A DNA stretch of 64,000 bases from Rhizoclosmatium globosum. Taxonomy: Eukaryota > Chytridiomycota > Chytridiomycetes > Chytridiales > Chytriomycetaceae. The notes beneath the pieces were generated by a model. It was not told where the DNA came from. It saw only the letters and a list, made by a program, of their open reading frames with translations, and searched no databases. How positions within the stretch are numbered: the first letter of the stretch is position 1; each line of letters starts with the position of its first letter. The stretch spans positions 558,001 to 622,000 of the forward strand of contig MCGO01000005.1 in the NCBI GenBank assembly GCA_002104985.1, in the 5' to 3' direction. The position numbers and the translations under genes were made by a program. Below are positions 27,985 to 63,805 of the stretch, one piece after another.

Positions 27985-29018
27985 ATGATCTCAACAATCA
28001 AGATCTGTATTAACTTGAGCGAGTTGCCCGATGAGCTACTCATTCAAGTGTTTTCGTGGATCACTCCTATCACTGTGTTTGTCTACCGTCCTTTATCACA
28101 TCGATTCAAACGAATTCTTGAAACACAACACTTCGCTACTTGCTGTCTGGCGAGATTGCATGAAGCTGACTTCCGCACAAAACTAGAGTTGATGGATTCT
28201 GAATCCGAATCCGATTCTGATGACGATGATGATGGTAGCATTGAAGACATCGATCAGGAGCTTAATCTCTTTCCTTTCATGGTGACCAAAAAAAGGCCAA
28301 CACTGATGGAGTATGTCTTTTTGCAAGCGCCCCCAAGCTTCCAGGATGTATTTGCAATGTCGAGGACTCGAGACTGAAGAACTGCAGACAAGTTTATTGG
28401 TCGTCAACGTATTTATCGCCGTATGCGCCTATTCCAGTTGCACTTTGCTCCCTATCTTCACTGGTGTGCTTAGTTTTACGGGGAATCCGTGGTGAGATTC
28501 CGCCAGAAATTGGTCGATTATCGTCTTTGAAAACCATGAATCTATCTGAGAATTTCAGACTCGTTGGGAGGATTCCCGTTGAACTATGCTTGTTGAAAAA
28601 ATTGGTATTCTTGGACTTGAACAACTGTAGTCTTTCAGGGCCCATTCCAGATGATATTGGAAACCTCGCTGAGTTGCAAGAGCTTCATCTCAATTACAAC
28701 CAATTAGATGGGCCAATTCCATCGTCACTGGGGAAACTATTAAATCTCAGATGGTTGAATTTGAGATACAACAAGTTGAATGGCGTCCTTCCAGCTGAAC
28801 TTGGCCTCTTGTCCAAATTGCAACGTATGAAGTTGCAAGAAAATATGCTGGAAGGACCAATTCCTCCACAGCTGGGAAAAACTGCCTTTGTTGATCTTAA
28901 CTCCAACCAAATTATTGGTGATGTTCCGTGTGAAGTGACGACATGGGTTGGTTATGATTTTTCACAAAATCCCAGAATGGTCTTTCCAGCGGATATTCCA
29001 ATCCGTCGAGAAGAGTAA
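27985..29018 (+). CDS. F-box protein with plant-type LRRs (copy 2, one apparent frame break)
   Basis: A close paralogue of 26408-27691. From the ATG at 27985 the frame gives LSELPDELLIQVFSWITPI (F-box) and an Asp/Ser tract, then stops at 28375. The neighbouring frame continues at 28374 with LKNCRQVYWSSTYLSPYAP and the same six LRRs, to a stop at 29016-29018. One missing base near 28372 joins the two exactly where copy 1 is continuous. Upstream of 27985 the frame still shows a remnant of the coiled coil (TARLQNQQTHLQ) but no ATG, so the N-terminus is shorter than in copy 1. It is either a recently damaged gene or, more likely, a sequence error in an intact one. Confidence 0.72.
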
Positions 29019-29109
29019 TAGTTTCTTTATGAATGGTTTGAAGGCATTAACCACTAAAATGAGAGTAGATATATAGTTAATTTGTTTGTTTCAAAGTGTC
29101 CGAAAAAGA

Positions 29110-30820
29110 ATGATGGCATCGTCAGCACCAACCGAAGAAGCCAGCGGACCGTTTTCAGTGATCCGCGACGCCACGCTCCGACGCAACGCCATCCAACTTA
29201 GTCAGCGCGATGGATTTGCGGCGTCGGTTGTGTCTGGACTGATTGCGCTGATTCGGAGCGGTGACTCATTGCCCCAACAACAGCAACAACAACAACGCCA
29301 AAGTGCGCCATCGGACACACAACTCGGATTTAAGATTGCGTCAATCGTCGACTTGTCCTTTGCCCTTCCCGCTCGCAAAAAGGTGGGCTTCGCTCTACCA
29401 ATCCTATTATGTTAACAGAACTACTTCACCACCTAGTTTACTCTTGCCGCTCATAAGAATGCTCTGGTTCTGACTGCATCTGCCTCGGATACTCCTGTGC
29501 TCTCCGTCCCCACAGAAAGCATTACGTCCCTCCTTGTCCTCCCAACTCCTCACAAACCCAAGCAAAACTTCTCTGTCGCATGGACAGTCTCTTCATCCGA
29601 AAGCGACCTCATTTACTTGGATAAAGCAGTACTGGGTCCGTCAGCAACATCAGATGCCTTCCTATTCACCTTTGATAACGCTGGAACTCAAATTACATTT
29701 AAATCCTCTACACCTGCGTTGGATGGCGTACTTCCCAAACCGGCTGAAAAGAAGGATAGGATCGTTGAGATTCTTCGGAAAACATTTGAGGGCTCGGCGT
29801 GTCATATTGAAGAACCCTCCATGAACGTGTTTAATGTATCCCTTGGTGGAAAGCTTGGACGTCAAGGAGTCTGTTGGGTAGACGGATTGGTGAAAATGAA
29901 GGACGGGTTCGTATTTTTCTAGCTGCTGGCTAACTCCATGAACCAAACGTCTAAATCCATCATCACTCAACAGACATTTCTATATGCTCCCAAACACAAT
30001 CTTTTACGGTTTCAAAAAGCCCCTCCTGCTTGTTCCAATTCCTCAAGTCCGTTCCATCTCTTTTGCATTCATCACGTCTCGTACTTTTACGCTTCTCGTG
30101 CACTACTACCCCAGCAGCACCGCTTCTTCAACGGCAAAACTGGCTTTAGAGACATTTGAACTCGAAATGGTGGACAAGTCGGAGTTGGAAGGTGTCCTCG
30201 CATATTTCAAAGGTCGTGGTGTACCTGTTGCTTCAGCAGAAGAATTGCTTCCTGGTGAAAATGGAAACGGTTCATCCGCTAGTGGAAGCAATAAAGGGAA
30301 AGTGGTCGTGTTGGGTGCGGGTGAGGTTGCTGATGGCGACGAAGATGGCGAGGCAGTTGATGCTTCGAAGAAGGATGTGAATGGAAACGCATTGTTTGAT
30401 GAAGATGAGGAAGATGATGAAGATTTTGTTGCGAACGATGAATCGGACGGAGATGATGTAAGAAATTCTTTCGCTAGAAACTTGATATTAACATATAGCA
30501 AACAGCTGGATGAAGAATACGACAGTGAGCATCAAACGGATGATGGATCAACCGACGACGAAGGAGATGACGATGACGACGACGAAGAAGAGGACGATGA
30601 GGATGAAGAACCGGAAAAGATTGTGCTCCTTGACGATGACGATGACATGGATGCAGAGCCTTCCGGCCAACGCGCAGCTTCTGAACTACAAGTTAACTCC
30701 AGGAAGCGAAAGAGTGAAGACACGTTGACGGCAGCAGAAAGTGGGAAATCCAAGCGTCAATTTATCGCTGTAGACGATGAGGACGAGGACGAAGAAGATG
30801 TGGATGAGCTGGCCTTGTAA
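29110..30820 (+). CDS. Rtt106-like histone chaperone
   Basis: Exons 29110-29382, 29437-29906, 29974-30457 and 30506-30820 give 513 residues. Two PH-like modules are recognisable, the second by MLPNTIFYGFKKPLLLVPIP and FELEMVDKSELEGVLAYF, the signature of the Rtt106 domain. The C-terminal 150 residues are a long Asp/Glu tail followed by a basic patch (SRKRKSED), as in histone chaperones. Known Rtt106 proteins deposit H3-H4 during replication and gene silencing. The third intron is 48 nt with no stop, so its retention would insert 16 residues in frame; I call it an intron because of its GTAAGA donor and branch site. A polyglutamine stretch is present near residue 60. Confidence 0.85.
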
Positions 30821-30891: not shown

Positions 30892-33758
30892 TTAGAAACT
30901 TCCAGTTCCGAGAATGTTGTCCTTTCGATCTCGGAGAGCAACTCGCTTGTTATTCTCTTTTGCCACAAATGTGTTGGCTCCAAAGTTTGCTGGACTGGGC
31001 GACTGGCTGGTAGATTGTGGCCGCAGTTTTTGACTGCCACTGCCACTCTCCGCAATGTCGAGTTCAGATGTAGGTATTTGGTTAAAGCGGTGCAGCGACT
31101 TTGGTAAATAAAAGCTAGAATTGCAAGCTATTAAACTTGTGAGCGAAAGATTAATCAAACCTGGGAAATATGGAATGTAGCAACATCCAGCTCATCAAGA
31201 ACAACAATGCAAATATAGTCACAAGAATTATTGCGGAAAGTAGAACATCATATTCCTGAATATTATCGTTCGTGATGCGGCGCGCAAACATGAGGAAAAT
31301 GAGAATACTCCCGTGTTGGATTAAATCCAAATATGCAATAAACTCTTCGTGCCAGGGACGTCTCCATGCAACAGCAGCCATTTCAAGGAGCATAACAATG
31401 CTTCCAGCCGTCATTTGGTCATCCGTCGTCTTGAAAACAACAGTTGTCGCATGGAATAAACATATAAAAGCGAGGTTTATGGAAAGCCAAACAATGTTGT
31501 CTGCATGGTATGGTTTATAGAGGGGCCAATAAGCTTGATAGAATTCCTGATTTGATGGTTTAGGGAAAAGGTTTATTTTGGAAACGATTAATCTAACCTT
31601 CGTGTGTCTTGACTTGTAGAAGCCAACAAGGAAAAAGGCGTTGACGAGAGGAGGTATGACACACCAGCACACAAAACTGACAATGGAAGGTTTCATGAGG
31701 GACATGAATTCTGATTCACCGCATTTCACGTATGGTAACTCCTTTAGGAACAAGACAGAGTATGTGTTGTCACTTAGAACTAGGCCACAGTTAAAGTAGA
31801 GAAGAGATCGGGATACAAGCATAGCTATTAAGAATTGAGAAACAACAGAAGGGTTAAGGTTTTATACTCACGATACATTGGGAACGAACAGAATATGATC
31901 CAACTTTTGATAATCCTCCAATATTCTACGTCAGGAACTTCAAATAGCTTACGGAAAGGATCTTTCCACGTGAAAGGATAAGGCGCGTGGTAGCCCCATT
32001 CTAGTGGAGGATTCCGCAACAAATGCTTTCTATGCCCGCGTAACATGTAAATGAATCCAGAAATAATGACTAAAACGAGGAGGACCATAATGGGACTGAT
32101 TAGCCAGAGACTTTGAGAAACGGAAGTCGGCACACGAGTTATACAGTCCAGACGAAAGTAAGTCAAGTCTAAATTGAATAAAGCGGAGATGTAGAGAATT
32201 TTGGCGGTTTGAGATGGCCAAATGGCTCTAGTTCTTCGTGTCAAGTCAAGAATCTACAGATGCGCTGTTTAGATAAGCACTGGTTGCCACACGGGTCCAC
32301 ATTCGAGACAATGTCCGTTTGTGTCAGCATAATAGTTATCTAAGCATTTGCCACAACGTTTTCCCGTGTAGCCCGTTTGACAAGAGCTCAACTCTGGTGG
32401 TCCACCCAAACATGCATCTTCTGGCTCACAAGTGTAAAACGCATTAACGCTTTCATCAGATACAGCGTGTCCTATAATGAAAAAGAAGTGTCTTTTTTAG
32501 AATCCACAATACATGAAGATACGCGCTTGATACCTGGAAGCGGAATTGCAGCAGATGAACCATTCAAGCAATTCATACATGGATCAAATCCGATTGTGTT
32601 CAATGATCTCCCATGATTTTTTAGGGTCTTTGTCACATTGGCAGCATGCACCGTTGGCGGGACATGATACACACGTTCCGTTTGTATTCACGTAGCCTGA
32701 TTGACAAACGCAGTCGTTTTTAGAGACAGCTGCACCAGTCGTGTATGAGCCGTGAGGACATTGAGCACAGAATGTCCCTGTTCCGTCGTCGTATTTGAAT
32801 CCTGGACATGCAGAGCAACTTGATTGCCCAATGCTTGGTTGTATGTAACCAGGCTGGCACTTTTTGCATTCTGTTTTGCCCAGATCGGGTTGGTAGTATC
32901 CCGGAGCACAAGGCGTGCATTGAAGCGCGTTTGTTGTATTTGAAAATGTGCCAATGGAGCAAGCCGCACAGACTGCAGCAGGTTGATCCAATGGATTCAT
33001 TCTGAGTTGTCCAGGTTGACATGACGCGCGCAAGACTTTACGGTACCGAGCACGTGCCACGTCCAGTTGGGTCTTGTATCCATTTGGCATATAAAATGTA
33101 CGAACGTGAGATAGAAGGCACCAACTGCCTTCCGTCAAGACGAGCTGGCTTTTGATGACGGTTGAGTTTGAAACACAGCTGCTTCTTGTGTCACGACTGC
33201 ACCTGAAGATGAAGTGGTTCCGTTTTTGACTGTCACGGAGCAGAAACCAAGTTCGGTGGGGCAAGCATGGAGATTTGCATCTGAGGTGGGGTGGGTTGCG
33301 GGGGGAAATTGTCAATTGATGAACGAAAGGAATCGAAAGTACAAACGGGCAATCAACGCCGAACCAACCCATGCAATACTTCCAAGAGATAATGCGTAGG
33401 AAGTGTCAATGCCTTGGCCAGCGTAGATGAGTTCTGGTGGAGGGGTGATCCACTGTACATCAAAATTTTGGGGACAAGTATCCACAAGAGTTCCGTTGAT
33501 CCAACAGTGGTTTGTATCGTCTCCCAGGTGGTATCGCTTATCCATATCCAGCATATGTTCAGGTATTCCAACAGTTTCGACTTCATGTGGTGAGCCGATC
33601 CACGTGTGAAAGTGTTTGATTCTTGCGAGTCCTTCCGTTTGGAATATTGATAGCGACGTGTTTGGCCAGTCTGTGACAATCAAGGAAACAGGGTCAATGT
33701 CAGAGTGGTTGGGGTGTCAGAACGCGAAGCCGGCGAATATGAGAAGCGTCGCCCACAT
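30892..33758 (-). CDS. Cysteine-rich multi-pass receptor-like protein (5' half with frame breaks)
   Basis: The 3' half is clean: exons 32293-32471, 31872-32253, 31598-31824, 31161-31546 and 30892-31114 splice in phase. They encode a Cys-rich segment (CLGGPPELSSCQTGYTGKRC) followed by about six or seven membrane helices and a basic tail. The 5' part encodes tandem CxxCPxGxYxxxxGxxxC repeats (CTPCAPGYYQPDLGKTEC, CQPGYIQPSIGQSSCSAC) like ephrin-receptor/GCC2-type modules, and an extracellular domain (HCWINGTLVDTCPQNFDV). A signal-like start (MWATLLIFAGFAF) at 33758 is followed by an in-frame TGA at 33717-33719. A second TGA lies at 33312-33314, and frame shifts occur near 33195 and 32596. Such proteins are common in chytrids and oomycetes, but ligands are unknown. 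Exact exon structure upstream of 32534 is uncertain. Confidence 0.62.
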
Positions 33759-33838: not shown

Positions 33839-35626
33839 ATGAACCAATACGAGCGCCGACCACGACCCGCCTCGCAGCGAGCCACGCGCACCACCGACGC
33901 CAAGTCCGGGATCTCGTTTATTGGGCTTGCAGTGAGTATACTTTAACCGAGCTTGGCCGCTGACTAGTTTGCGGATGACTGTGACTAAGCCACTCTCGTT
34001 CGTTCGCACCAAAACAGCGCCGCCTCGCCGTCCAAAAGCCGACGCTCAAAGGCCATCGCGGATGCGTCAATTCGCTGAGCTGGAATTCGGAGGGCACGCG
34101 CCTTCTTTCGGGCTCAGGTTCCTTCCCTTTCTTAACTCTCCTTTCCAATTATCAACCAACCAACCACAGACGACTGCACCGTCAAACTCTGGGATCCATA
34201 CAGAAACGATCACGCGGGAAGCGCCCTAGTTCACTCATTCGCCACGAGCCACACTGCCAACATATTCTCTGCAAAGTTCATGGTTGGTTCTGACACTAAG
34301 ATTGCTTCATGTGCAATGAATGGGAAAGTACGATACCTCGAAACTAATGGTGCATCGGTCTCGCTCAACGGACTCTTCAACTGCCACTCGGAAATGACGG
34401 ACGAAGTGTTCCCTGACCCGCAAAACCCACACGTGTTTTTCTCGTGCAGTGACGATGGCACAGTCAACGAATATGACACTCGTGTCGCAACGTCGTGTCA
34501 TTGCGAGCATTGCAACAAGTACACAATCATTGACGTGAATCGTTCCGTCTCTTCTCATCCTTATGCTCGTCTGGATAATCTTGCAAAACACCGCGGAGTT
34601 CCAAAAACAACAACTAGTGCATCTTCGGCTCCTGGAGACGTCCGCCGTCTTGGACTTCGACGCTTCTTTTCGTCTGGTGGAACTGGCATTGCTGCCATCT
34701 CTTTACACCCTGTTCACTCACAATATATGGCTCTTGGATGTAGTGACGATGTTGTTCGAGTATTCGACCGTCGACTCTTGAAACCGCCAGGAACAATTGA
34801 CTGGTCAAACGATATCGCAGCATCGAGGGGCGAAGTCTATTCTGCCATTCCAGCCAAATTTGTTCCATACGCGCTCAGCGAAGAAGACCGAAAACAATAC
34901 CTTCCTGTCTGGCCTTCTCACATCCCTAGACCTACCCCACGAATCGTGTTTGACCCAAAGAAAATAACCAGCTGCAAATTTGATCCCAGCGGCTTGACAC
35001 TCGATATTCTTGTGTCCTACTCGGGCGATAAAGTCTACCTATTGAGACCTTACGAAGGTTCCGTTGATTTCGAAACTCCTGCATCCAACCCTCCATACAC
35101 CCTGAGCAACGTGGGCAAACTGACGTCCATCGCGAGTTTTCAGGACACCAGAACAGGCAAACCATGATCAAAGAAGCGTACTTCTTTGGCCCCAAATCCG
35201 AATGTATCATGTCAGGATCAGATGATGGTACTTTTGTGTATGGGACAGGTCAACAGGCGAAATGATCAACAGAATCAAATCGGATCGCAGTGTTGTCAAT
35301 TGTGTGTGTCCAAACCCTTCGCAAGATATGATTGCTGTTTCTGGTATTGACCATGATATCAAATTGCTTCAACCTACCAACGAAATTCCGTGGGACAGCA
35401 GTAATTCCAACAACGTTGTTGCAGATGACGATGAAGAGAGCGACGACGACTACGAGGATGATAATTTGGGTCCGATTCCGCGTGATTTGCTTCTGGCCTT
35501 TTTGGCGCGTCATGGTTTGACTGTTGGTGATGTTTTGGGTGGAATGGCTGCTCACCAGGATGATCTTGAAGTGGATGGGGACGAAGATGAGGAAGAAGAC
35601 GAGGATGGAAGAAATAAATGGAGGTG
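33839..35626 (+). CDS. DCAF8/WDTC1-like WD40 protein (two apparent frame breaks)
   Basis: Exons 33839-33931, 34018-34117 and 34170-35626. WD repeats start with LKGHRGCVNSLSWN, LLSGSDDCTVKLWD and SHTANIFSAKF. FYGPKSE-like motifs (FFGPKSECIMSGSDDGTF) and DMIAVSGIDHDIKLLQP occur near the end. This is the pattern of DCAF8/DCAF6/WDTC1, substrate receptors of CUL4-DDB1 ubiquitin ligases. The frame is lost near 35120 (between NVGKL and HREFSGHQNRQTM) and again near 35241 (a Trp codon in VYWDR lacks one T). Each needs one extra base to restore the family consensus. The protein ends in an acidic tail. Its start is 80 bp from the divergent receptor-like gene. Confidence 0.82.
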
Positions 35627-35774: not shown

Positions 35775-36860
<1,086 letters not shown>

Positions 36861-37279: not shown

Positions 37280-37537
37280 CAGAATCCGGCCCCAAGACCC
37301 TGAATTCACAAGCTCATTTCCGTCAGAAACAACTGTAGCGTTTCTCGTTGCCTTTTGTTGCTTTAAAGTGGGGTTAAGTCGGTTTCTTTGGTCAGTGTTT
37401 CCTTCACAGAGGCACCTTGGCCCTTTCGGTTTCGCACTCCTTCGTTTTCTGAATAGATGGTGTTAGATGGATATAAAATTCAACGAGAAGGGACTGTGAA
37501 ACAAACGCATTATTTGAAATCTACTTTGAAAACGGGA

Positions 37538-39040
37538 ATGGACAGCAACCGAGCTGAACAACAGGACGAGCTGGAGGCTCTCCAGTCTATTTACAACGAA
37601 GACTTTTCGTGTCAAATAACCTCAGGCGATGCGGATCCCGTGGGCCGTTTGACTGTGAGGATGCAGCTTCCAGGCACTTGCATCCTTCCATTGCCTAGTG
37701 TTGAAGGCGTGGCTGGAAGCTCTGTCACGATCAATGTAAGCGTACCTTCCTACATTGCTCAATTATGTATTTATGAGTGTTATCAGTATCTGCCGCCTGT
37801 GGTGATTCACTTCTCACTTCCAAAGTCATACCCATCTGAGACTTCTCCACATTTCTCTCTCTCCTGCGACTGGTTACCGTTAACTCAGCGTCGTAAATTG
37901 CATCAAGGACTCAAAGATCTTTGCGAGCAAACCATTGGAAATGTGGTTCTATTTTCGCTTGGCCAGTATGTTGTTGATGAGTCGATTGGATTCTTGGGAC
38001 TTCTAGACGGAGATACAATCAACCTCGCATATAACAATCCGCAAGACCATCTTAATGCCGTCGATGCGTTGGTTGCAGCTGATAGGGAGCACGCTCAGTA
38101 TTTATTCTCAAATTCAACCGTTAGCTGTGGAATTTGTATGGAATCCAAGTTAGGTAGCAAGTGCCATCAATTTATCGAATGCCGTCATGCGTATTGCTGT
38201 GCCTGTCTCGAGGATTACTTTACCGTACATATCACGGAAGGTCAAGTACTTCAAGTCACTTGTCCTGATGCATCCTGCAAAAAACCCAAGCCAGGAAGCG
38301 GAGGGAAACTAACACCATTGCCGCCTTCGTCCTTGTCTTTCCTGCCCCATGATTTGATCTCTCGTTATACATCACTTCTTGAAACCCACGATCTCCTCCA
38401 AAAGCCAAACCTTACTTATTGCCCTCGACCCTCCTGCAACGCCCCCACTGTCAAAGACCCTGAAGAAGAGAAACTATGTATATGCTCACAGTGCTCTTAC
38501 GCCTTCTGTTTCTTTTGCAATCGTACTTGGCATGGATATGCGTCATATTGTCAAATCCGCCACCTTGAAACGATCGCCAAAGAATATATATCAGCGTCTG
38601 AACAAGAACGCAAGACGTTGGAGATAAAATACGGTAAAAAGACACTCGAGAAGGTTGTACGAGAGATTGAGGAAGCCAAGTTAAATGCATCATGGTTGAA
38701 GGAAAATGCGCAAGCATGTCCAAATTGCACATGCCTTGTGGAGAGATCGGAGGGGTGCTGTCATATGACTTGCAAGGTCTGCTCCACTCACTTCTGTTTT
38801 AACTGCGGTGAACGATTGAACCCAAGTGATCCTTATCGACATTATAATACCCAAGGAACGAGATGTTTCGGAAGATTGTTTGAAGGAACCGTGATGGCGG
38901 AGTATGATCCTTTGAATGATCCTGCTGTGATGGGTGATGCTGTGTTGCAAAATAGAGTAATGCATCGAGGCAACGAGGAAGAAGATGACGAGTATTTGGA
39001 CATTCCCGAAGACGTTATGCTTGATTTTATTCGACGCTAA
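37538..39040 (+). CDS. RWD-RBR E3 ubiquitin ligase (RNF14/Itt1-like)
   Basis: I start at the ATG at 37538; the frame is open to 37457. An RWD domain (ELEALQSIYNEDF to about residue 150, with YLPPVVIHFSLPKSYP) is followed by RING1 (CGICMESKLGSKCHQFIEC), an IBR and RING2 (CPNCTCLVERSEGCCHMTC). This is the arrangement of RNF14/ARA54 and yeast Itt1, which act on stalled ribosomes and translation factors in other fungi and animals. A 51-nt segment (37736-37786) starts GTAAGC and ends TATCAG. Its removal joins TINYLPPVV as in the family, so it is very likely an intron that happens to be in frame. The stop lies only 6 bp from the convergent chitin synthase stop. Confidence 0.93.
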   Translation: MDSNRAEQQDELEALQSIYNEDFSCQITSGDADPVGRLTVRMQLPGTCILPLPSVEGVAGSSVTINVSVPSYIAQLCIYECYQYLPPVVIHFSLPKSYPSETSPHFSLSCDWLPLTQRRKLHQGLKDLCEQTIGNVVLFSLGQYVVDESIGFLGLLDGDTINLAYNNPQDHLNAVDALVAADREHAQYLFSNSTVSCGICMESKLGSKCHQFIECRHAYCCACLEDYFTVHITEGQVLQVTCPDASCKKPKPGSGGKLTPLPPSSLSFLPHDLISRYTSLLETHDLLQKPNLTYCPRPSCNAPTVKDPEEEKLCICSQCSYAFCFFCNRTWHGYASYCQIRHLETIAKEYISASEQERKTLEIKYGKKTLEKVVREIEEAKLNASWLKENAQACPNCTCLVERSEGCCHMTCKVCSTHFCFNCGERLNPSDPYRHYNTQGTRCFGRLFEGTVMAEYDPLNDPAVMGDAVLQNRVMHRGNEEEDDEYLDIPEDVMLDFIRR

Positions 39041-39046
39041 ATAAAA

Positions 39047-42000
39047 TCATGTTGGCATGGGTCGTGGCCCAACTAAAGTTTCTCTCTTTCCAGCCCTTCT
39101 CTCTATCCAACCTCCACCCATACTTGCCATTGAAGTACGATCTCGTGAAACAATAAATGTTGATTTTGGAGCGGTGCCAAGATTACCGTCGCTATCACCA
39201 TTTACAAGGGTTGCATCCTCGCGAAATGTGGATAACATGTACTGTTCCTTAATGAGAGGCTCGGGGGCAAATTTAGAATCGTGTCGCGACTCAGTGCCGA
39301 ACTTGGGATCATTTGGCGGAGAAGTGCTTTTGAATGGTACGATCTCGATATTATGGAGTGCTATTGAGCTAGCTGATGGTACCGCATCTTCACTTTCTAT
39401 CGGAGAAGCGCGTAATGGTTTTCCCTTCAGGATGGATACTGGTTGCTGAAGTGACGACGAAGTGGAAGATTTTGAGAACGCTGAAACAATGGGTATGGAC
39501 TTATTTAATGACTGTGGTACTATTTCTGGTGTTTTCGCTTGGCGTTTAGGTGAGGTATGTCGTGGAACACGTCGAGGCGAAACTTGAACTGAATTTCTAC
39601 TGGCATAAGCTTCCTGTCTTATACTCAGTTGTCCCAATCTTTCCAGCTCCCAATCTTTCCGTCTAAATACAGAGTAAGCTTGAGGGAAAGCATTGATATC
39701 ACTCACTTCTTCAACATGACGGTTCCTTGCTCGAACACATTCCCACAACTCATTCGCCCAGCTGCAAACGCAGTAACGGACAGCGCATTTCCCTCTGCAA
39801 ATTCTCCCGTTTCAATTCGCGGTGAGTTTTCAATTTGTCTCGTTTCTCCCCAGCTGAAGTCATCAAAATGCCAAAAGGCCCATAGCGGGAATACAATATT
39901 CCAGATAGGCAACGACAAAAAATAAATAAGCATCCAGAATATGTACACTGGTTTCAACGATACAATGGCAATGAGAGTCCCAGGAAGGAACAGAGTTGCG
40001 ATCATCATATAAATAGGAAGTAGTGTGAATGAACCGTCCATGACACCGATGACTATTTGAGCTACTAAAATTATAAGAGCGGCAGGGAGGACTATGGTTC
40101 CAATTAAGTCGAGCTGTCGTTTAACATGAGTAATTTAATTTAAGCCAACACTTGCCTCACCAAAACTACAAATCGCATCGAAAAACAAAATACACCACAC
40201 AAATCTCGCATTCGAACTAGTTCGGCTAAGTTGTGAACCGTGGAGTTGATCCATCGTCGTCTTTGCGATAACAGAATTTTGAATTTATCAGGAACAACCG
40301 TCTTACAGATCGCTAGCAACAAAAATTGAGTCCAAAAAAAAGCATGAAAGAAGCATGAATACAAACCTGAAGGTACATAGACTAGTTTCCGCTTTGGAAA
40401 TGTTCTCAACATCATCGTTGACAAGAATCTATCTTCGCCCAAGAGTAACAAGTTTTTCTTGTGCAACGTATCCACCATATTCTCACTATATTCTTCCACG
40501 ATATCAGGATTGCGATAACAGGCATAGTCCACATGCCTCCAGGTCCCTTCGCCATTTTGATTCGGTACATACAAAAACACCCAGGCAAACAAGTAACTCC
40601 ACCAAAACAAGATTCAAACGCTTTACCCAAGTGATGCGACATAAAATATTCAAACACCTGAATCATAGTGACCCATGAACCGAACGGATTGGCTACCTGT
40701 GTCTCACCACAAAGACCCATCACTTTATCATCACGTTTCATAGTTTCCACCATATGTCTCAGCGACGACGGTTCAGCGACAGTATCCGCATCAACCATAA
40801 GTACCAGTGTATATGCCGTTGGTGGAACATTTCCTTCTGTAATTCCAGATATCTTAACCCACAAATCAAAGTCAAGTGCTGTCATTCGGTCCTCAAACAA
40901 AATCCGCGAAAGGAAGTTCATGAGGATCAGCTGTGAATCTCGTTTACCTCTATTTCCTGATTTTGTTTGGCCTTGTTGAGCTTGCTCCATTGGTGTACCG
41001 CACTTGATCACAGCAATCATTGGTACAGCTACGCTGGGTTCGGCAGGATCGTTGATGTAGTATCCAGCATATACTTGCGCCATATTATGTTGCTTTTCGC
41101 CATGCGCGATAGCGAGGTAACTCTGGAGTGGTGGATTGTAGTTTTCTGGAGGCCCAGTATTCGGGAATGACATGAGTGCGAGAATGGAATCAGGAGTTGA
41201 TTCGATATTTCCAGCGCCAGTGACAAGACCATCGGCGACAACAAAGAGGAGCTTCTTGTTGTTCGGATATTCCGTTTTCGACAAAGATTCAAGGGTTGAT
41301 TTGATACTTTCACGACACTCTGAATAGCAAGTTACGAATAAAATCACATAAGGGTCAGGTTGAGCTGGTGGAGTAGTGGTGTCATTGTTTTGTGCTGTTT
41401 CCAGATCGAGACCATATGGAGAGTTTGTTCAGGGTCTACAGGCTGAGGTATCGACTTATTTCGTGATTTTCGATTGCGTAAAGAGTCTGTGCCTCCAATG
41501 GCACTGAATGCGGATATTAATTGAAAGGCGACAGCCATTGCGACTTTCACAGCGACGATTCCAACAATTACCATCAAGCAAAAAACTTGAATAGCATGAG
41601 TAATAGTGCAACCAATTGACTCTGAGTGTATGTAACCAACAGTAGAGGTTTGACGCAAACACTTGATGGCAGTGATGGCATCTGGAGACGAGCTGAAAGC
41701 AAGAGTTCCATCTATTCCAAGCGACGCATTTATGAGCTCCACAATTTTTGGATTTTGCAAGATGGGTGGAGGAGAATCGGTCACAAGGATAGACGTGAGA
41801 TTCAGAATTGCACTGTTATAGAGCAAAAGAGTATGCGGAGAATTTGACGATATTATCCCATTCATTGAGAGATCAAGGTAGGAATATGAAGCAATACCAA
41901 TCGGTTTCAGAGTAGATATCCAAGTAAAGTCCGGGCAAGACTGTCCAGGTTGTGGGCCAAGTGCTGGACTCCTTGGGAATTTCAAATTTGGCAAAATGCA

Positions 42001-42513
42001 GTTATATTGTTGCTGTGAATTGATATCAGCACATGCGTCAGACGAAGGTTTGAACAGAGCTGTTATATCGGAATTCAACCAGTCAGAAGTCAACGAAATT
42101 CCCCCGAAATCCGCCAATCGAAGCTGCACTTGAGTGAAATTATAGTAGTAACCATATATTCGCACGCTATCCTGGAAAGACATGGTTCTATGATCAGCTT
42201 GGCTCAAGGTGAATATTGGTGGAATAGGCTGTAGTATTCGCGAACTGCAAAATAGGAGCGGTAGGCCGAGCGTAACAAAAGCCAAACCGAGCATTGCAAC
42301 TAGAAAGAGAAAGCACAGCGCGACCTAAATTATGTCAGCCTCACTACCGAGTGAAAGTGCACTCAAAACCACCTTCTCACGCCACGCCAACTGTGCCGCC
42401 GCGTCTTTCAATCCACAAAATGCGAGGACTGGCGCGGCACATGCGCACGTTAAACCCTGCGCAAATGTTGCCAGCGCAGACTTTTCCTTCTGTGGCTCTC
42501 CTTCCGACGCCAT
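39047..42513 (-). CDS. Chitin synthase, division II (class IV/V-like), two apparent frame breaks
   Basis: Exons 42373-42513, 40367-42324, 40161-40312, 39707-40113 and 39047-39662. The N-terminus ([17 protein letters not shown]) leads into two membrane helices around a cysteine-containing lumenal loop. The GT2 catalytic domain has [70 protein letters not shown] and [12 protein letters not shown] (the processive Q/RxxRW motif). Six or so membrane helices and a Ser-rich tail follow. The enzyme makes cell-wall chitin at the plasma membrane. The frame slips near 41400 (before PDPYVILF) and 40510 ([17 protein letters not shown]); each is repaired by one base, a G in a GGG run and an A in an AAA run. 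Confidence 0.9.
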
Positions 42514-49371: not shown

Positions 49372-49515
49372 TTGTAAGGATGTTGATGATAAACGATAAT
49401 GTTTGTCAGCAGCACATGGGAAACAGGCACGCACTTCCTCAAACAATTTGATAAATAAATGATTTATCTCCCATATTTAGCAATACGAAACGAATTGAAA
49501 CCTCTGCTATCCTCA

Positions 49516-53490: not shown

Positions 53491-54952
53491 ATGGACCACC
53501 TAGAACTTCCCACTATCGCTGTCAACCGCCAGTCAAGTGAGTTATATCAGATTGCATAGGAAAGAATCAAACAGCTGACTTGTTGTGATAGCGCTGCGCT
53601 CTGCTGCGTCGGGAGTGACAATAGTACAACAAGAGCCTCACAACACTGCCACTCACGCCCCTGTCACGGTCAGATCAAGTCTTCGAGCTCTATGGACCAG
53701 CATCTTATACTTTAACATTGCCTCATGTATCTTTGTGCCGCTGGGCATCCTGTCCCACTCTCTCAAATGGGGTGGGTGTTGACTCCTTTTTTTGCTCCGT
53801 TGGGCTTGTGAGTTCTAATTTGTTATGCTTACAGGTGATGTCCCTACATTCGTTCTCAACTTCCTTGCCATTATTCCTCTTGCAAAGATGTTGGATTATT
53901 GCACTGACCAGCTCTCAATGAGAGTTGGTGAAACCATGGGCGGACTCTTAAATGCGTGAGTATCTGTTACTAATCAACGTATGTCAACTGACACATCATA
54001 TTTTAGTACGTTCGGAAACGCCGTCGAACTTATTGTTGGCATCCTTGCTCTCAAAGACGGACTCCTTAGAGTTGTCCAAGCCTCCTTGATTGGCTCAATG
54101 TTCTCCAATTTATTACTTGTTCTCGGACTCTGCTTCTTTTGCGGAGGAATGTTTCCTTATTCTCAAAACCAGTACCAAAAATTTGATACTGACAAGGCCA
54201 ATGTCAACACTGGTCTGCTTGCAGTTGTTTGCTTGGGATTCATGGTTCCAGCTGCATTCGAGATGTCTTCCTTGAAAGAGCAAGTTGCAGAATCTACTCT
54301 CTCCATTTCTAGAGGAACCGCTGTTTTCATGCTCATGACATATATTGCTTACTTGGTTTTCCAAATGAAAACAAATCCAGACGGCCTCGTAATTACTCCA
54401 AAGGAGCGCAAGTTGGGGCTCACCGCCAAAGACTTGTTGGAACGAAAAAAGCTGGACGACGAGGAGGAAGAGGAAGAGGAAAGGCCCGAAACTTTGACTT
54501 GGATAGCATTGGCTGGTTTGATTGGCTGCACATGTATCATTGGTCTCTGTGCAGAATTTCTTGTTGGTTCTTTGGATGGTCTTTCTGAAAAAGCTGGACT
54601 TTCGCACACTTTCATCGGTATCATCATATTACCAATTGTTGGAAATGCCGCCGAGCATGTCACCGCCGTCAGCTCTGCCATGCGAAACAAGATGGACTTG
54701 GTGATTTCAGTCGCGGTTGGAAGCAGTATGCAGGTCGCCATGTTGATTGCCCCTCTACTTGTCATGATTGGATGGATTATAGGTCAACCTTTGACCTTGG
54801 ACTTTGAATTGTTTGAAACCGCCGTACTGTTTGTCAGTATTTTCGTTGTTTCCACCTTAATTTCTGATGGGCGAACACATTGGCTGGAAGGTTGGATGTT
54901 GTTGACGTCTTACGCAATCATTGCTGTGGCTTTCTACTATGTTAAGGATTAG
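53491..54952 (+). CDS. Vacuolar Ca2+/H+ exchanger, CAX/VCX1 family (array copy 1)
   Basis: Exons 53491-53536, 53592-53771, 53835-53955 and 54007-54952 give 430 residues. Eleven membrane helices are arranged as an inverted repeat, with the two ion-binding alpha motifs GNAVELIVG (c-1) and GNAAEHVTAVSSAMRNKMDL (c-2). An acidic Glu-rich loop (DDEEEEEEERPE) separates the halves. CAX proteins use the vacuolar proton gradient to sequester Ca2+. This copy lacks the final intron present in the other three: STLISDGRTHW is continuous. Confidence 0.95.
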
Positions 54953-55114
54953 CGGATTCATTTGTTCTATAGTTCATTGTTCCTATGTGCATAGTCCACT
55001 CGAAGTAAAGTTATTTGCATTTCAGTATCATTGTGTGGCAGGTTGAGTGAAAGGATCCAGGGATCAACTCCAATTTGGATTGGGTGCCCTTTGGAAAAAT
55101 TATTGCACAAACAA

Positions 55115-56591
55115 ATGTCCGTTGACGCCGCCGCCGGCCTTCCGACTTCCGGTACGTACCTCCACTTCACCCTCTTTGTACTGCCAAGGCAATTATGCCA
55201 TACTAACTCTAGTCGTAGAAAGCGCAGGTGTGTCTCATCACAGTCACAAGCGACAAGAACCCACAGTCAAGTCCAGTCTTTACAACATTTGGAGGCGGAT
55301 CCTCTGGTTCAACGTTGTTGCTTGCATCTTTGTTCCTCTCGGTATCATCTCGCATTTCCTGCATTGGGGTGAGTGGTAAATGTCTCTTGGGCTTGTGATA
55401 ACCAAATGAATAAGGTGACGTCCCAACCTTCGTCCTGAATGTCCTGGCCATTATTCCATTGGCCAAAATGCTTGATTACACTACTGACCAGCTCTCGATG
55501 CGAGTCGGTGAAACGATGGGCGGACTCCTCAATGCGTAAGTGAGGCACGCATCTTAGTAAGTCAGCTGACATGTCTTCCTCAGCACATTCGGTAACGCTG
55601 TTGAGCTTATCGTTGGTGTCCTTGCCTTGAAGGATGGACAGTTACGTGTGGTTCAGGCCAGTATTGTCGGATCTATGCTCTCCAACATTTTGTTGGTCCT
55701 TGGTCTTTGTTTCCTATGTGGAGGTCTCTTCCCTTACCGCAAGAACGGGTACCAAAAGTTCGATGCGGACAAGACAAACATTAGTAATGGCCTCCTCGCT
55801 GTCGTAACTCTCGGGTTTATTGTGCCAGCTGCTTTCAGCATGTCGCTCAAGGAGACTGATGCTCAATCTACGTTGTCGATTTCTCGTGGTACTGCTGTCG
55901 TATTACTTATCACATACGTGGCCTTCTTGGTCTACCAAATTAAAACGAATCCTGATGGAAGTGTTATAACACCAGCTGAACACAAGGCTGGCAAAACAGC
56001 AGAAGCTATTCTTGCTGAACGCGAGGTTGAAGTTGAGGACGATGAGGAAGAGGAAGTCCCAGAACTTCTGACTTGGATTGGTATTCTTGGACTTGTCGGG
56101 GCTACATGCATCATTGGAGTTTGTGCGGAATTCCTTGTGGATTCTTTGGACGGACTTTCTGCGAAGGCTGGACTTTCGCACACATTTATTGGTATCATCA
56201 TCTTGCCAATTGTTGGAAACGCCGCAGAGCATGTCACAGCTGTTAGCTCCGCTATGAGAAACAAAATGGATTTGTGTATTGCCGTGGCTGTTGGGTCAAG
56301 TATGCAAATCGCTTTGATGGTTGCGCCAGTTCTAGTAATGGTTGGATGGATGATGGGGAAGGAGTTGACCCTCGACTTCCAGCTTTTCGAAACAGCCGTC
56401 CTATTCGTCAGTATCTTTGTTGTTTCAACTTTGATTGCGGTAAGTTCTTGTTCAGTTATACCCTAGTACGACTCAACCTTTGCAACACACAGGACGGAAA
56501 AACTAACTGGATGGAAGGATGGATGTTGCTTGCCTCTTATGTCATTATCGCAGTTGCCTTTTTCTTCGTCAAAGATCATGGAAAAGAATAG
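55115..56591 (+). CDS. Vacuolar Ca2+/H+ exchanger, CAX/VCX1 family (array copy 2)
   Basis: Exons 55115-55151, 55213-55368, 55415-55535, 55584-56439 and 56493-56591 give 422 residues with no frame problems. It has GNAVELIVGVLALKDGQLRV in the first half and GNAAEHVTAV in the second, with a shorter acidic loop (EVEVEDDEEEEV). The C-terminus (FVKDHGKE) is slightly longer than in copies 1 and 3. A last intron (56440-56492) splits TLIA from DGKTNW. It is 162 bp from copy 1 and in the same orientation. Confidence 0.95.
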
Positions 56592-56691
56592 AGATTTTAA
56601 TTTTAATCAATAAACTTCATTGGGATGCAAGCTGGAACAGCAACAACAACAGACATCCCCATATCAGGTACAGCCGAACACACATGAGAAC

Positions 56692-58277
56692 ATGAAGGAG
56701 GAAACTACTGACTATGGCATCATGGTAGACAATCCTGGGCCCTTATCAATCCGTTCGGCCTCGGGCCATCCCCTGACAACCGCACAATCGTTGAAAATGC
56801 TATGGACAGGCATCCTGTACTATAACATTGCATCATGCATCTTTGTGCCCCTTGGGATCATATCGCACCTCCTCAAATGGGGTAAGTGGGTCTAATTGAG
56901 ATAAGTGCGCACTCAACCCACTTTATAAATGCGAAAGGCGATGTTCCAACGTTCGTTTTGAATGTACTTGCTATTATGCCGCTTGCCAAGATGCTCGATT
57001 ATTGCACAGATCAGCTATCGATGCAAATTGGGGAGACGTTGGGAGGCTTGTTAAATGCGTAAGAATGGTCTATAGTCCGCAATAACTAAGCAATATTTAG
57101 TACGATGGGAAATGCAGTTGAGTTGATTGTTGGTGTGTTGGCACTCAAGGGTGATGAGCTTCGAGTTGTTCAAGCTTCTTTGATTGGATCCATGTTGTCG
57201 AATATGCTTCTCGTTTTGGGTCTATGTTTCCTCTGCGGTGGCCTCTTTCCATATCGCAAGAACGGTTACCAAAAGTTCGATGTCGATAAGTCGAATGTGA
57301 ACAATGGTCTTCTCACTGTTGTGATATTGGGCTTCATCGTACCAACTGCATTCAATATGACCCTCCAAGAAACTGACACCCAATCAATTCTATCGATTTC
57401 TCGCGGAACAGCCACAGTGCTGCTTGTGACCTATGTCGCCTTCTTGGTTTTCCAGCTGTCAACAAACCCAGATGGAAACTTGGTCACACCAGCTGATATG
57501 AAAAAAGAGGCACTCGCACTCGCAGAACCTGATTCTCCTGTTGCAGAGCTCACTGTGGTCAATACCAGACACAATATGATTCGTGGACTATCATTCAATT
57601 CAAACACAAGTCTGGGTACGACTCCATCTCGTAACACACCAAGACCCAGTCTTAGAGTTATTAGAGATCCTTCCTTCCACTCGGTTGCGCGCACACCGAC
57701 CTATCACTCTGCCGCACGAAAATCCTTAAAAGAAAGACAAGACGAAGAAGATGTTCCAGAAGTCCTTGGATGGATCGCTATGGTTGCATTGTTGGTGACG
57801 ACAGTTGTTATCGGGGTTTGCGCGGAATTCCTGGTTGATTCGTTAGATGGTTTGTCAGCGAAAGCTGGCCTTTCAAAGACATTTATTGGTATCATTATCT
57901 TACCAATTGTCGGAAATGCTGCGGAGCATGTTACAGCTGTTAGTGCAGCTATGCGAAACAAAATGGACTTGGTTATTGCTGTTGCCGTTGGATCTAGCAT
58001 GCAAATCGCATTGCTTGTCACTCCTGTTCTCGTCTTGGTTGGATGGATGATGGGAAAAGAGTTGACACTCGACTTCGAATTGTTTGAAACTGCAGTCCTG
58101 TTCGTTAGTATTTTCGTGGTCTCGACTTTGATTGCGGTATGTTTTTTGCCTTATTTCATAACCTTTTCATTAAGATTCTTTTTAATGCAGGATGGAAAGA
58201 CCAACTGGTTGGAAGGTTGGATGTTGCTGGCTTCATACACCATCATTTCGGTGGCTTTTTTCTTTGTCAAAGATTAG
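56692..58277 (+). CDS. Vacuolar Ca2+/H+ exchanger, CAX/VCX1 family (array copy 3, long linker)
   Basis: Exons 56692-56881, 56938-57058, 57101-58136 and 58191-58277. The first in-frame ATG is at 56692; the frame is open to 56620 without one. Both alpha motifs (GNAVELIVG and GNAAEHVTAV) are intact. The central cytosolic linker is some 55 residues longer than in the other copies and is Ser/Thr/Arg-rich (TPSRNTPRPSLRVIRD), a likely phosphorylation and regulatory segment. Transporters of this family are regulated through such loops and N-termini; that role here is inference. Confidence 0.95.
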
Positions 58278-58467: not shown

Positions 58468-60015
58468 ATGCCACCAAAACACGAGAGCAACGAGGAGCTC
58501 CTTCCGCCATCCGACTTCATCCAAGCGACAGGAAGTGCCCAGTCCTCTGTCCGTGCGTCTAACTAGAACCTTCCTCTGAATCACAAATGCGATACTGAAC
58601 TCGAACCAAACCACAGTCTCAGTCCCAGGCACTGACAACGGCCTCATTGCCCCGCTTTCGACCATCCAACTGAGCCACGAGACGCTGTCACAGTCAAATC
58701 AAGCTTCTACGCAATGTGGAGAGCTAACTTGGCCCTCAATATCATGGCTGCAATCTTCACTCCTCTGGGCATACTCAGCGCCGCCCTGGATTGGGGTTAG
58801 AGCACATCCAACATTAACTTTGTTACTAAAGTAGCTCTGTATTGATAGGCGATATTCCACGTTCATCCTCAACTTTCTTGCTATCGTTCCATTAGCAAAG
58901 ACTTTAGATTTCACAACAGATCAGCTTTCTATGCGTGTGGCCAAACAATGGGAGGCTTGTTGAATGCGTGAGTGATGTTTGATGCACTAATTGGTGCTGA
59001 ATGTCTTTGGTAGAACATTTGGAAACTTTGTTGAACTGATTGTCGGAGTCCTTGCCCTCAAAGACGGTCTTCTCCGAATAGTTCAAGCTTCGTTGATTGG
59101 TTCAATTCTCTCAAACTTGCTCTTGGTTCTTGGTCTCTGTTTCTTTTGCGGAGGAATGTTCCCATACGCTGAGAACCAGTATCAAAAGTTCAATGTGGAT
59201 AACGCGAATGTTCAGTCGGGTCTTTGGCCGTTGTGTTCTTGGGATATGTTATTCCAGCTGCATTTCAGCAGAGTAGTAACTCGGAAAACACGAGTGTCCT
59301 TGAACTTTCACGCGGCACTGCGTTTATGCTCCTCATAACTTATATCGGATACTTGGTTTTGAGCTCAAAACGAATCCAGACGGCCTTGTAATCACCCCAA
59401 AAGATAGGAAAGATGGAATCACCAGTGCACAAATCTTGGAAAAGCGTAAGCAACAAGCTATTGATGATAATGAAGAAGAGGAAGAAGAAGTACCTATCAC
59501 GTTGGCATGGGTTTCGTTAGTGGCCTCGTTGGTGTAACAGTCGTGATTGGGATTTTGGCTGAATTCTGGTTGGGAGTTTGGAGGGACTAAGTGAGCAAGC
59601 TCACATCAGCAAGACTTTTATCGGTGTTATTCTTCTTCCTATCGTTGGAAATGCGTCGGAGCATTTGACTGCTGTGAGCTCTGCGATGCGAAACAAGATG
59701 GACTTGGTTATTGCTGTTGCAGTTGGCTCAAGTATGCAGATTGCCTTGCTCGTAACACCGCTTCTCGTATTGATTGGATGGATGATTGGACAGCCTTTGA
59801 CCATGGACTTTCAATTGTTTGAAACAGCTGTGCTGTTTGTGACTATCTTTGTTGTTTCCACTCTGATTTCCGTAAGTACTAGATTTTGTTCATTTTGCTT
59901 TAAAGCCATTTAATCTATTTTGACAATAGGACGGGCGAACCCATTGGTTGGAGGATGGATGTTGTTGACTTCATACCTAATTATTGCTGTCGCATTTTAC
60001 TACGTCAAAGATTAG
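58468..60015 (+). CDS. Vacuolar Ca2+/H+ exchanger, CAX/VCX1 family (array copy 4, eight apparent frame breaks)
   Basis: The whole gene is present from MPPKHESNEELL at 58468 to FYYVKD at 60015. Introns sit at the family positions (58555-58617, about 58797-58849, 58968-59013 and 59873-59930). The frame is lost at about 58685, 58859, 58939, 59223, 59358, 59521, 59573 and 59951. In every case one base added at or beside a short run of the same base restores the sequence of copies 1-3. There are no nonsense substitutions or insertions. The c-2 motif reads GNASEHLTAV, and the c-1 motif reads GNFVELIVG, with Phe in place of Ala. The stop codon overlaps the stop of the convergent PPR-like gene. Confidence 0.8.
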
Positions 60016-62851
60016 AAGGATTTTTTTTGAGGAATCTCTTGCAATAAATTATTATTCTTTTTCGCAGACATCAGAAAGCGAGGCCAAAACAAGTTACACC
60101 ACTCAACAAACTCATCCCTATCACTCACCCTCCCCAGCTTATCCAAACCAGTTAAAATAGTCTCATACATTTTCCGCGTTGGCCAAACCCCCTTCAAATA
60201 ATCAACTTGACAATCCCTCACCCCAATCTGCTTCGCAAACGCAATAGCCGCATCAACACGCCCGCACCGCAATAAGGCCTCCAAATACGAGTTACAATGA
60301 TTCTCGGTAATAACAAACCCAGACACAGTACCATGCCACGCAACAACCTCTTCCCACGCTTCATTCAACCCAGCAATATGGTTCCGATACCCAAAACTAT
60401 CCAAATACAAGCAAACAATCGACTCACGAACACGTCCTGGTCCTGACACCTTAACCGCCTCTCGCCACAGATGCACGACTCTCGAGTAACCACCTCCATA
60501 CGCGTGTGCCATCATCTGCACGGACAGGAACTTGTCAGTCATTGAGTCACCCCTGCTTCGAGTTGATATTGTTTCAAAAAGTGTTCGGTAGCTTTGACGT
60601 CTCCTGCGCGAGCGGCTTTTGAAACGAGGATGAGGGACATGGTTTCCCATTCGTTGCTTGAGGGGGCTATGTTTGTGCGGACGCGAATTTCGGTGAGGAG
60701 TGAGGAGACGTCTTTCCAGGTTGTGGTGGGGTCGTTTGCGACGACGGAGAGGAGGGCGCTGGAGACGAGGATGTCGGTTGTGACTGTTGGGTCTGTTTCA
60801 ATGAAACGGGTGAACCAGTCATTTGCGGTTTGGCGGTTTCGCATGCAGTAATGACAACGGCGAATACTTTGTGTGGGATTCGGAAGTTGTCTGATTTCTT
60901 TGCAGATGCAGCCATTCGTGCGTTCCAGGCTGCAATTGCGTGTGGTTTTCGTTGTGTTTGATACAGGTTGCAAGGTATGCTCCGAGAATGTCAGAATCAA
61001 GTGTGAGTGGTTCCTTCAGGGCGATTTCACGACAACTATTGATTTTCTTGATTATCGGCGGCGAAACCAGATCTTTTGGCGACCCGTTTTTTATCAGCGT
61101 GTAGATTACTGAGTGATGGTCTGCTGGTTTTAAGAAGGTAAGGTTTTTTGCCAGATGCACTTTTGCATCTTTCCAGCGACCGCAAGAAACCAAGTTTTGG
61201 ATATACGTCTTATGCAAAGTAGAGAGTCCAGGATGTATTTGGTGCCTGTAGCGAAACTCCCGATTCCTGATTGAAACCTCAACACCAATTTCTGACATTC
61301 CTCTGGCGCATTCAATTTCGCAAACGCATTCATGATATGAACAACTATAGTTTTGTGAATTAATTTGTGAGAAGACTGAATCGAACAAACAATGGATAAA
61401 CTTACAAGGCAACACGGCTTCCTCCTTTCTCAAAACATCATCATTTTTCAAGCCTTCTACCATGTCAAGGACATCGACAGCCTCCTGTACCAACCGCATA
61501 TCCGGATACTGCCCTCTATGATCCCACACAAGAGCGCGAATCCGATACGAAAGCGAGAGCACGGTTTCTGGAACCCACGTTCTTGCATCAGCATACTCAA
61601 CCGCTTAACCTGCGCAACATTCCCTTGACCCGCCGCAACACGAAGCAATCCGTTATAATACACAGCATCTGGTGTCACATTTCCCGAAGCACACCAAGTC
61701 TCATGAATCTCATGCACTTTGTCCCAGTTGTTTTCATTTGCATAACCAGTGGAAAGGATTGAGACAGTTACGATAGAAGGACGAGTTTTGAAGCGTTCCA
61801 TTTCGGAGAGAACCCATGCGAAATCATTTGTGACGGAGGTGGAGGTTCGGTGTTGAAGGAAATCGTGGAAGATTGGGTAATTTGGTGTTAACCCTCGATC
61901 CAACAGTTTCTCGTACCATTCCTTTGCTTCCTCCACATTTCCATTCTCAAGTGCGCGTTTGATGAGTGCGGAGAAAGAGGAAAGGTTATGTTGTAGTGGT
62001 TTTGCGGCAAAGTTGGAGCATGCGACAAGTTGGTTCTGAATGATGGATTGTACATCTTCCTCAACAACCATTTTTCCGTCTTCAATTCCCTTAAGCAGGA
62101 TTCAGAATGTATTGTTTTGAGTATTGTTTGCCGCAAGTGTATTGAACAGCTTCCCAGATACTACCGTATTTGAAGTCAATCGCTTCTGCTATTTTAGGGT
62201 CCAGTTTGTCGGGAAATTCCACGCCCATCCAAACAGCTTCCTTCACGCGTTTCAAGATGCGCATCCACTCTCTCGTTTCGGCATGACTCCATGAGAGCCA
62301 GGATCTCGATTGAAACTGATTTGTATAATTTGATTTCGAGTAACATAACGGATTGCGTATTTGTGTAAGTTGTTGGAATTTTCAGGGTGAGAATCCAATG
62401 CCCAATTTGCGTCGTTGACTGTTGTGTCGCTCTCAAACGACTTTTGATGACGAACAAAATTCGCGTCTGCGTTGAGAAACATAACTGCTGAGTCCTTTCG
62501 CAATGCTCCACAGACCGTCGCCATTCTTGTGCGGCCAATATCGCAAGGAGAGAATACTGAAGGGCTCCCACAGGACGGGCATTGAGTGTATTGTTTTGGA
62601 TTTGTTGTTTTTCTTGATTGCATTCGTGCATTTTGAGACAAGTTCAGAGATGGAGTCAAGGGGGAGAGAGGGGATTTTGCAAGAGTGAGTAGGAGGGTTT
62701 CAGTTGCGAGGAAGGAGAAGGATGGAGGAAACGAGACTTTATTTGCAGGAGCGGTCTCGAAGGTTTATAGTTGGACGATGAGAGGAGTTGGCAGTGCTGG
62801 AGTGGAGGAATTTGTCGTTGGAGACGTGTGGTGCTTATGAGGAAGAGACAT
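60012..62851 (-). CDS. PPR-repeat protein, probably mitochondrial (several apparent frame breaks)
   Basis: Helical-pair repeats of about 35 residues are visible across the span: SSFSALIKRALENGNVEEA, TPNYPIFHDFLQH, TVSILSTGYANENNWDKV, VYYNGLLRVAAGQGNVAQV, GLSTLHKTYIQNLVSCGRW, HNSYLEALL-like NHCNSYLEALLRCGRVDAA, and MYETILTGLDKLGRV. These are typical of pentatricopeptide proteins that bind organellar RNA. The 5' end (62650-62851) is Ser/Arg/Leu-rich, like a mitochondrial presequence, but the start is not certain. The frame changes near 61570, 61263, 60941, 60830 and 60550; each is repaired by one base. Two further breaks near 62105 and 62660 do not fit that pattern. One intron lies at about 61345-61405. 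Confidence 0.7.
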
Positions 62852-62932
62852 GATTTCAAGAAAGTGTCAACTGTGATTTGAAGGGATTGCGCAGTGGGAA
62901 TCCCAATCGTACAGGGACCAATAGCATTGCAT

Positions 62933-63805
62933 TTACATCCTCTCGCGACACTTCAGTATGGATTTCGAAGGATTAAAAAGGGGAGGCCCCAGTAGAAGTT
63001 GCTTCACAATATGGTTTGTTATGATGGCAGTCGATGCAGATGACGCGAGAAACCATGTTTGGACATCTTCGAATAGAATTTGGGTACTGTGAGAATTGAA
63101 GATATCCATGAAGGTAGCTGACAAGTGATTATGCAACTCCTTGTCCTTTGCAAGGTCGAGTTTGGCTAAATTCTTGACTATATAGGCAAGAAGGACACGA
63201 GTAGCCTGACGTCCAAGACAAAGGAAACTTGCTGATTGGGTTGAGGTTTCAGATATTCTTTGTTTGGTTTCAACGTGTTTGCCATCAGATGCAGAAGCAC
63301 GGCGGCATTGACAGCATCCAACAAAATCTTTAGATTCGAGTTACGTTTCGCGTTTATGATGAGAGCATTCGCGATTTGAGGAATGTTTTTGTTTTCAGCA
63401 CAATCGCGAGCGAGTTTGACGAGCATTTGAGACGGTGAGTGTTCAGGATTGAGAGCAAAGAGGAAGTATTTGCGATCGGCGAAGACGAGGCGACACGAGG
63501 CCGCGTGAACACGCCTAAGGACGGGCGGGCGCGAGAGATAGGCGGCGTGGAGGGCGGCGCGCAGAGAAGCGACGTGGGCGAAAGTGGCGGCGGTGGCGTC
63601 GAGCGGCTTTAGCGATGCGAGGCGGAGTGCGGACGTTGGTCGGAGGCTGTTTGGTTGGTGGTTGGTTTTTGGTTGGTGGTTATGTAGAGGTGGCGAGTTA
63701 CCGCCATTCGTGCGACATCTTCTGCACGGCATCCCACTGCTGCTGGACGGCCTGTTGCTCAACGAGTGAGGCGATTCTTGTCCAGTTGGTGGTGCTGCCA
63801 CTCAT
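62933..63805 (-). CDS. Uncharacterised helical protein (one apparent frame break)
   Basis: Starting at the ATG at 63805, exon 1 encodes MSGSTTNWTRIASLVEQQA and ends at an intron whose acceptor CAG precedes LRPTSALRLASLKPLDA. The long second exon is Ala/Leu-rich and helical (FAHVASLRAALHAAYLS, IANALIINAKRNSNLKILLD). It loses its frame near 63225 and resumes with SFLCLGRQATRVLLAYIVK and HNHLSATFMDIFNSHSTQI, to a stop at 62933. I do not recognise the family. Helical repeats (ARM/HEAT-like) are possible, but no motif proves it. It shares a 60-bp divergent promoter region with the MYND gene. Confidence 0.6.

Follow-up and report, generated by a model that had tools for sequence, protein, structure and literature searches.

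Why do so many neighbouring genes in one part of a Rhizoclosmatium globosum contig seem to lose their reading frame by single bases? The window analyzed here is a stretch of 64,000 nucleotides (positions 558001-622000 of the 896,209-bp contig C366) from an assembly that comprises 56.9 Mb in 420 contigs and that we presume to be based on PacBio sequencing. A first-pass annotation had named twelve genes that lose frame, all confined to the right 35 kb with an onset at 28.4 kb, and had favored residual consensus deletions of a long-read assembly as the cause. R. globosum is described as an aquatic chytrid with a saprotrophic lifestyle (PMC12115818), and the available genome of strain JEL800 is attributed to Mondo et al. 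2017 (PMC8887899). Features of the window that bear on the question are compiled in the table.

Features of the analyzed window (positions in the 64,000-nucleotide stretch of C366)
Feature	Position	Strand	Observation
F-box/LRR copy 2	28360..28367	+	8-bp insertion in C366 relative to C232
Receptor-like gene (Ephrin_rec_like domain)	32472..33405	-	versus C232: 1-bp insertion, 1-bp deletion, 8-bp deletion
DCAF8-like WD40 gene	34136..35624	+	single-base deletions near 35093 and 35233 against the C232 frame
SURF4/Erv29	35777..36860	-	three single-base deletions, all within the N-terminal quarter
RBR-type gene (RWD, IBR)	37457..39040	+	open in C366 (527 aa); five single-base indels in C232
Chitin synthase (Chitin_synth_2, CHS4)	39817..42324	-	two frames meet near 40515 with exactly one base missing
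OPT transporter copy 1	44232..46766	-	ten frame events versus four chytrid relatives
OPT transporter copy 2	47015..49476	-	four deletion events versus R. hyalinum
CAX (Na_Ca_ex) copies 1-3	53960..58277	+	no retained frame break
CAX copy 4	58948..60013	+	five single-base deletions retained from six calls versus copies 1-3
PPR gene	60012..62101	-	four single-base deletions (398 aa aligned to R. hyalinum)

DNA searches identified the 36,281-bp contig C232 as a reversed, collinear copy of this part of C366 with about 97-99% identity. Positions 1-36000 of C232 align to window positions 1-39,144, where the match stops; the exceptions are a 4.1-kb retroelement (window 11,166-15,270) and 138 bp. To the left of roughly 32 kb, the differences between C366 and C232 resemble those between alleles. 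Substitutions favor third codon positions (37 of 48 in the kinesin gene, 37 of 54 in the kinase gene, 36 of 41 in kinase 2 and 8 of 15 in F-box copy 1; the phase row '21251' was excluded, its interval being not codon-aligned), and indels within the listed coding intervals measure 3, 18, 6, 3 and 9 bp, excepting the F-box copies and a 1-bp event at 18672. Apparently, C232 is a second, allelic copy of the C366 region. The 4.1-kb element (11160-15272) contains a frame similar to reverse transcriptases (RVT_1 at 29.2 bits, slightly under the cut-off of 29.6) and split direct repeats in pairs of 221 nt and 211 nt, and we take it to resemble DIRS/PAT-type retroelements. As the element is missing at the matching place in C232, it is apparently a heterozygous insertion. 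At window position 32272/32273, beside the receptor-like gene, C366 lacks 138 bp that are present in C232.

Our data do not support the proposed onset at 28.4 kb and the sharp change assumed there, since single-base coding differences between the two contigs begin near 33 kb. No single-base coding indel was counted in the 16,024 bp of listed coding intervals left of 32 kb, whereas the 2,896 bp from 32.7 to 36.9 kb contain six (Fisher P=1.3e-5; P=7.9e-5 on inclusion of the event at 18672, located two bases inside the predicted edge of its interval; an event at 33299 just outside the coding interval was not counted). The event at 28.4 kb itself is an allelic-type insertion that adjoins a similar 8-base word, and in C232 the frame of F-box copy 2 is continuous over 382 aa. 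The tandem F-box/LRR copies (26231-29018) appear to be reciprocally disrupted, copy 1 by two 2-bp differences on C232 and copy 2 by the insertion on C366, which together looks like a real allelic difference; a multi-base indel opposite a clean frame in the other copy was found at the F-box copy 2 site only. The receptor-like gene, previously counted among uniform one-base losses, instead shows a mixture of an insertion, a single-base deletion and an 8-bp deletion. The 8-bp events in both genes are more likely real allelic indels.

The most direct evidence comes from the RBR gene. Between window positions 37,457 and 39,144, C366 and C232 differ by not a single substitution but by five 1-bp indels, all of them inside the RBR gene, and 522 of 522 aligned residues are identical. 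Alleles, pseudogenes or decaying copies hardly fit a combination of zero substitutions with five coding indels. The RBR comparison is therefore a direct demonstration of error, and the error is located in C232, near the end of that contig, where two deletions and three insertions are mixed. Since C232 carries errors where C366 is clean, the two contigs are affected at different places, and this separate cluster in C232 likewise disagrees with one sharp change near 28 kb. Also, the right segment of C366 is by no means uniformly affected, as the RBR gene and CAX copies 1-3 stand open among broken genes.

This patchiness is most obvious in the tandem array of four CAX-type exchanger genes (53960-60013), in which three are clean and one has several breaks. 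Pooled over six genes, 27 events in 8,729 bp of coding sequence give a rate of 3.1 breaks per kb, so that about nine breaks would be expected in the approximately 2.85 kb of copies 1-3, where none was retained (P=1.5e-4); the error process must therefore be patchy. Two calls were rejected, one near 56443 in copy 2 because it coincides with an intron and one near 57498 in copy 3 because it belongs to a variable loop. For copy 4, eight breaks had been claimed; multiple breaks were recovered, but at a lower number than that, and a two-base call at 59875 was discounted since the reference reads through an intron there. Both internal stops of copy 4 lie beside this discounted call.

For the individual genes, proteins of relatives were aligned to the window by a script permitting introns as well as frame changes of one or two bases. 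Ab initio frameshift HMMs called between 0 and 8 breaks in the window, none of them left of 28.37 kb, and were abandoned because introns are so short in this genome (47-87 bp in 19 examined) that the model could span a break by a spurious intron. The homology test covered nine of the twelve named genes, the RRM gene, NMA111 and the 63-kb gene being outside it. All nine carry a frame-disrupting event, as had been noted before, but the kinds of event differ, given the 8-bp insertion in F-box copy 2 and the mixture in the receptor-like gene. Break calls were obtained within 30 bases of 13 of the 22 positions that the first-pass annotation gave outright, one of which (28372) is of another kind; the remaining nine (41400, 43626, 43733, 43797, 43832, 46771, 51940, 52121 and 60550) lie outside the stretches covered by a homologous reference in this analysis.

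In SURF4, one-base deletions were located near 36779, 36762 and 36620, two of which had already been listed, with 227 of 273 residues identical to the reference row and no stops. The same gene in C232 shows no frameshift, and substitutions between C366 and C232 are found close to the break sites. A one-base insertion call near 36005 vanished once a loosened donor rule admitted an intron there, and a 2-bp event at 36668 was left out of the counts as intronic. The DCAF8-like gene forms one open frame of 497 aa in C232; events near 35607-35616, including a one-base insertion call in an acidic, diverged tail, were left out of the counts. A DNA search for a second copy of window positions 39.1-52 kb found none in the assembly, and the case there therefore rests on relatives. 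The chitin synthase matches profile positions 11-300 and 300-404 in two different frames which abut with exactly -1, and overlapping frames make a second, predicted break near 41400 plausible. OPT copy 1 comprises six one-base and three two-base deletions as well as one two-base insertion (364 of 746 residues identical, no stops), with poor resolution in a cluster of events at 45246-45355. OPT copy 2 shows one two-base and three one-base deletions over 47017-48996, with 634 of 642 residues identical to R. hyalinum and no stops; the reference profile for this gene included the public R. globosum model besides R. hyalinum. In the PPR gene, one-base deletions lie near 61573, 61237, 60944 and 60831 (389 of 393 residues identical to R. 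hyalinum, no stops). The R. hyalinum proteins run continuously through the four OPT copy 2 and the four PPR breaks.

The public annotation hid such breaks as truncation and false introns. The public SURF4 protein model (P0001) measures 202 aa, versus 279 aa in Siphonaria, and the public OPT copy 2 model P0079 lacks, as judged by eye, three segments that are found in R. hyalinum P0080, at the break sites.

Internal stops were sought in SURF4, the DCAF8-like gene, both OPT copies and the PPR gene as aligned, and none was found. Genuine decay would be expected to leave stops, substitutions and relaxed constraint beside the frameshifts, but OPT copy 2 and the PPR gene retain about 99% identity to R. 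hyalinum. The shared direction claimed for the breaks largely held within C366, where deletions make up all three events in SURF4, all four in PPR, all four in OPT copy 2 and nine of ten in OPT copy 1, but not for the mixed RBR cluster of C232. The reported proximity to short runs of the same base proved only weakly above chance. Among all 15 one-base sites at which C366 is short relative to C232 (32,273-37,456), 11 fall into runs of at least two, which hold 46% of bases (P=0.03), and four into runs of at least three (P=0.24).

Junctions between neighbouring pieces of four families (OPT, chitin synthase, PF00118 and kinesin) were examined across the assembly by comparing the DNA gap to the profile or query gap. 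Rows used were 76 of 76 for OPT, 39 of 75 for chitin synthase, 64 of 65 for PF00118 and 115 of 116 for kinesin; the 36 omitted chitin synthase rows are short matches on C2, C20, C57, C106, C112:160-164 kb, C126, C168, C202, C300, C346 and C415. An excess of more than 20 bases, interpreted as an intron, occurs at 134 junctions and stays below 40 bases at four of them. Another four junctions (two OPT, two kinesin) with an excess outside -13 to +20 but not intron-sized were set aside. Frame-changing junctions too tight for an intron number 33, of which 18 are exactly -1, three are -2, one is +1, one is +2 and ten are others. Only one of the 18 exact -1 junctions is in the window and 17 are elsewhere, so the breaks are not confined to its right 35 kb. 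Those outside lie on C124, C256, C101, C388, C117, C105, C68, C79, C378, C359, C365 and at C366:764.9 kb, and three fall within one chaperonin-family gene on C365. Between two of these contigs, C68 (about 645 kb) and C79 (about 644 kb), a stretch of 1,698 bp shows no difference (C68:127201-128900 and C79:516450-518150), and a chitin-synthase-like gene has two -1 breaks in common; because of this identity, the shared breaks are not independent. True pseudogenes may be among the OPT and chitin synthase paralogs on other contigs. For the kinase family PF00069, which stands outside the junction count since 121 of 941 candidates were scored, seven adjacent pairs evaluated by hand all leave room for an intron. 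Partners of the same size and range on another contig were seen for 59 of 115 kinesin, 16 of 39 chitin synthase, 36 of 76 OPT and 14 of 64 TCP1 rows used. These matches suggest unmerged allelic contigs, though the partner rule catches some paralogs too.

We are thus highly confident that residual consensus errors, with few exceptions missing bases, account for the single-base breaks from about 33 to 62 kb in a long-read assembly with patches of presumably weak consensus. This interpretation, which is the best supported one, is held because C232 (SURF4 and the DCAF8-like gene) or the sister species R. hyalinum (OPT copy 2 and the PPR gene) keeps four genes unbroken, because the flanking residues are undecayed and because the -1 signature recurs on other contigs. 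The indels are single-base and mostly in one direction, and at 37,457-39,144 they come without accompanying substitutions. Single bases would have been dropped where the consensus was locally weakly supported, possibly due to read depth or polishing. Some observations speak against an artefact: the homopolymer association is weak, CAX copies 1-3 lack the breaks expected at the pooled rate, the mixed cluster of C232 is unlike the deletion bias of C366, and the breaks of C68, for which C79 offers no unbroken copy, are unlike independent errors unless both contigs derive from the same reads. Overall, the locus most likely reflects an artefact of the assembly, joined by a few indels of allelic type, and not a biological novelty.

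A special form of the residual-error reading, whose likelihood is already contained in it, assumes that polishing under a haploid model turned heterozygous SNPs into deletions, with collapsed heterozygosity instead of low depth as the cause. Several deletions adjoin allelic substitutions, the absence of a second contig from the search at 39.1-52 kb is as expected after a collapse, and 10 of 12 sites fit a missing third codon base compared to 57% in a simulated null. But the mean third-position share in the codon-position test is not significant (P=0.12), and breaks also occur at 33-37 kb, where both copies were assembled apart, so that we regard this form as possible but rather unlikely. A scenario in which one haplotype of a diploid chytrid truly decays, C366 bearing null alleles next to a functional second haplotype, would agree with the allelic appearance of C366 and C232, with several genes broken on one of them only, and with the reciprocal differences of the F-box copies. 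In sharp contrast, the RBR gene is broken on C232 with its five indels and no substitution, flanking residues show neither decay nor stops, the R. hyalinum OPT copy 2 and PPR proteins are about 99% identical and unbroken, and -1 events of this kind also occur in chaperonin-family genes elsewhere; this scenario is very improbable. Slightly less credible still is a diploid chytrid whose haplotypes both contain patches of genes with genuinely broken frames and compensate for each other's losses, in the reciprocal manner seen for the F-box copies. Widespread programmed -1 frameshifting, to which the dominance of one direction might point, is hardly worth considering, as the counterparts of SURF4, the DCAF8-like gene, OPT copy 2 and the PPR gene in C232 or R. 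hyalinum are in one frame, so that the shift is not conserved, and as one gene alone would need up to ten events and the affected genes are unrelated.

R. globosum JEL800 is a working model chytrid whose reference has been used for gene counts (PMC12115818) and for expression mapping (PMC8887899). Among the matches listed in the open-licence literature, as far as their text was accessible, no paper on such errors or on unmerged allelic contigs in R. globosum was found. Should the assembly indeed combine patches of single-base errors with unmerged allelic contigs, its gene models suffer from truncation or false introns, and gene families can be overcounted. Our results should be useful to users of the R. 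globosum reference, as some of its gene models are distorted.

Unmerged allelic contigs, or haplotigs, occur in assemblies of heterozygous genomes. C232, collinear with C366 at about 97-99% identity, and the many same-size family pairs on two contigs resemble haplotigs, whereas C68 and C79 differ from them in showing no divergence over the 1.7 kb compared. The breaks themselves resemble the residual long-read indel errors that fragment genes as assessed by Kastor (PMC12007338): they are mostly short indels with deletions prominent, they truncate gene models, and the affected genes are unbroken in relatives. In contrast to the errors described there, those in R. globosum show a weak homopolymer link and a patchy distribution, some lying few codons apart, and they affect an intron-bearing genome in which breaks are absorbed into false introns.
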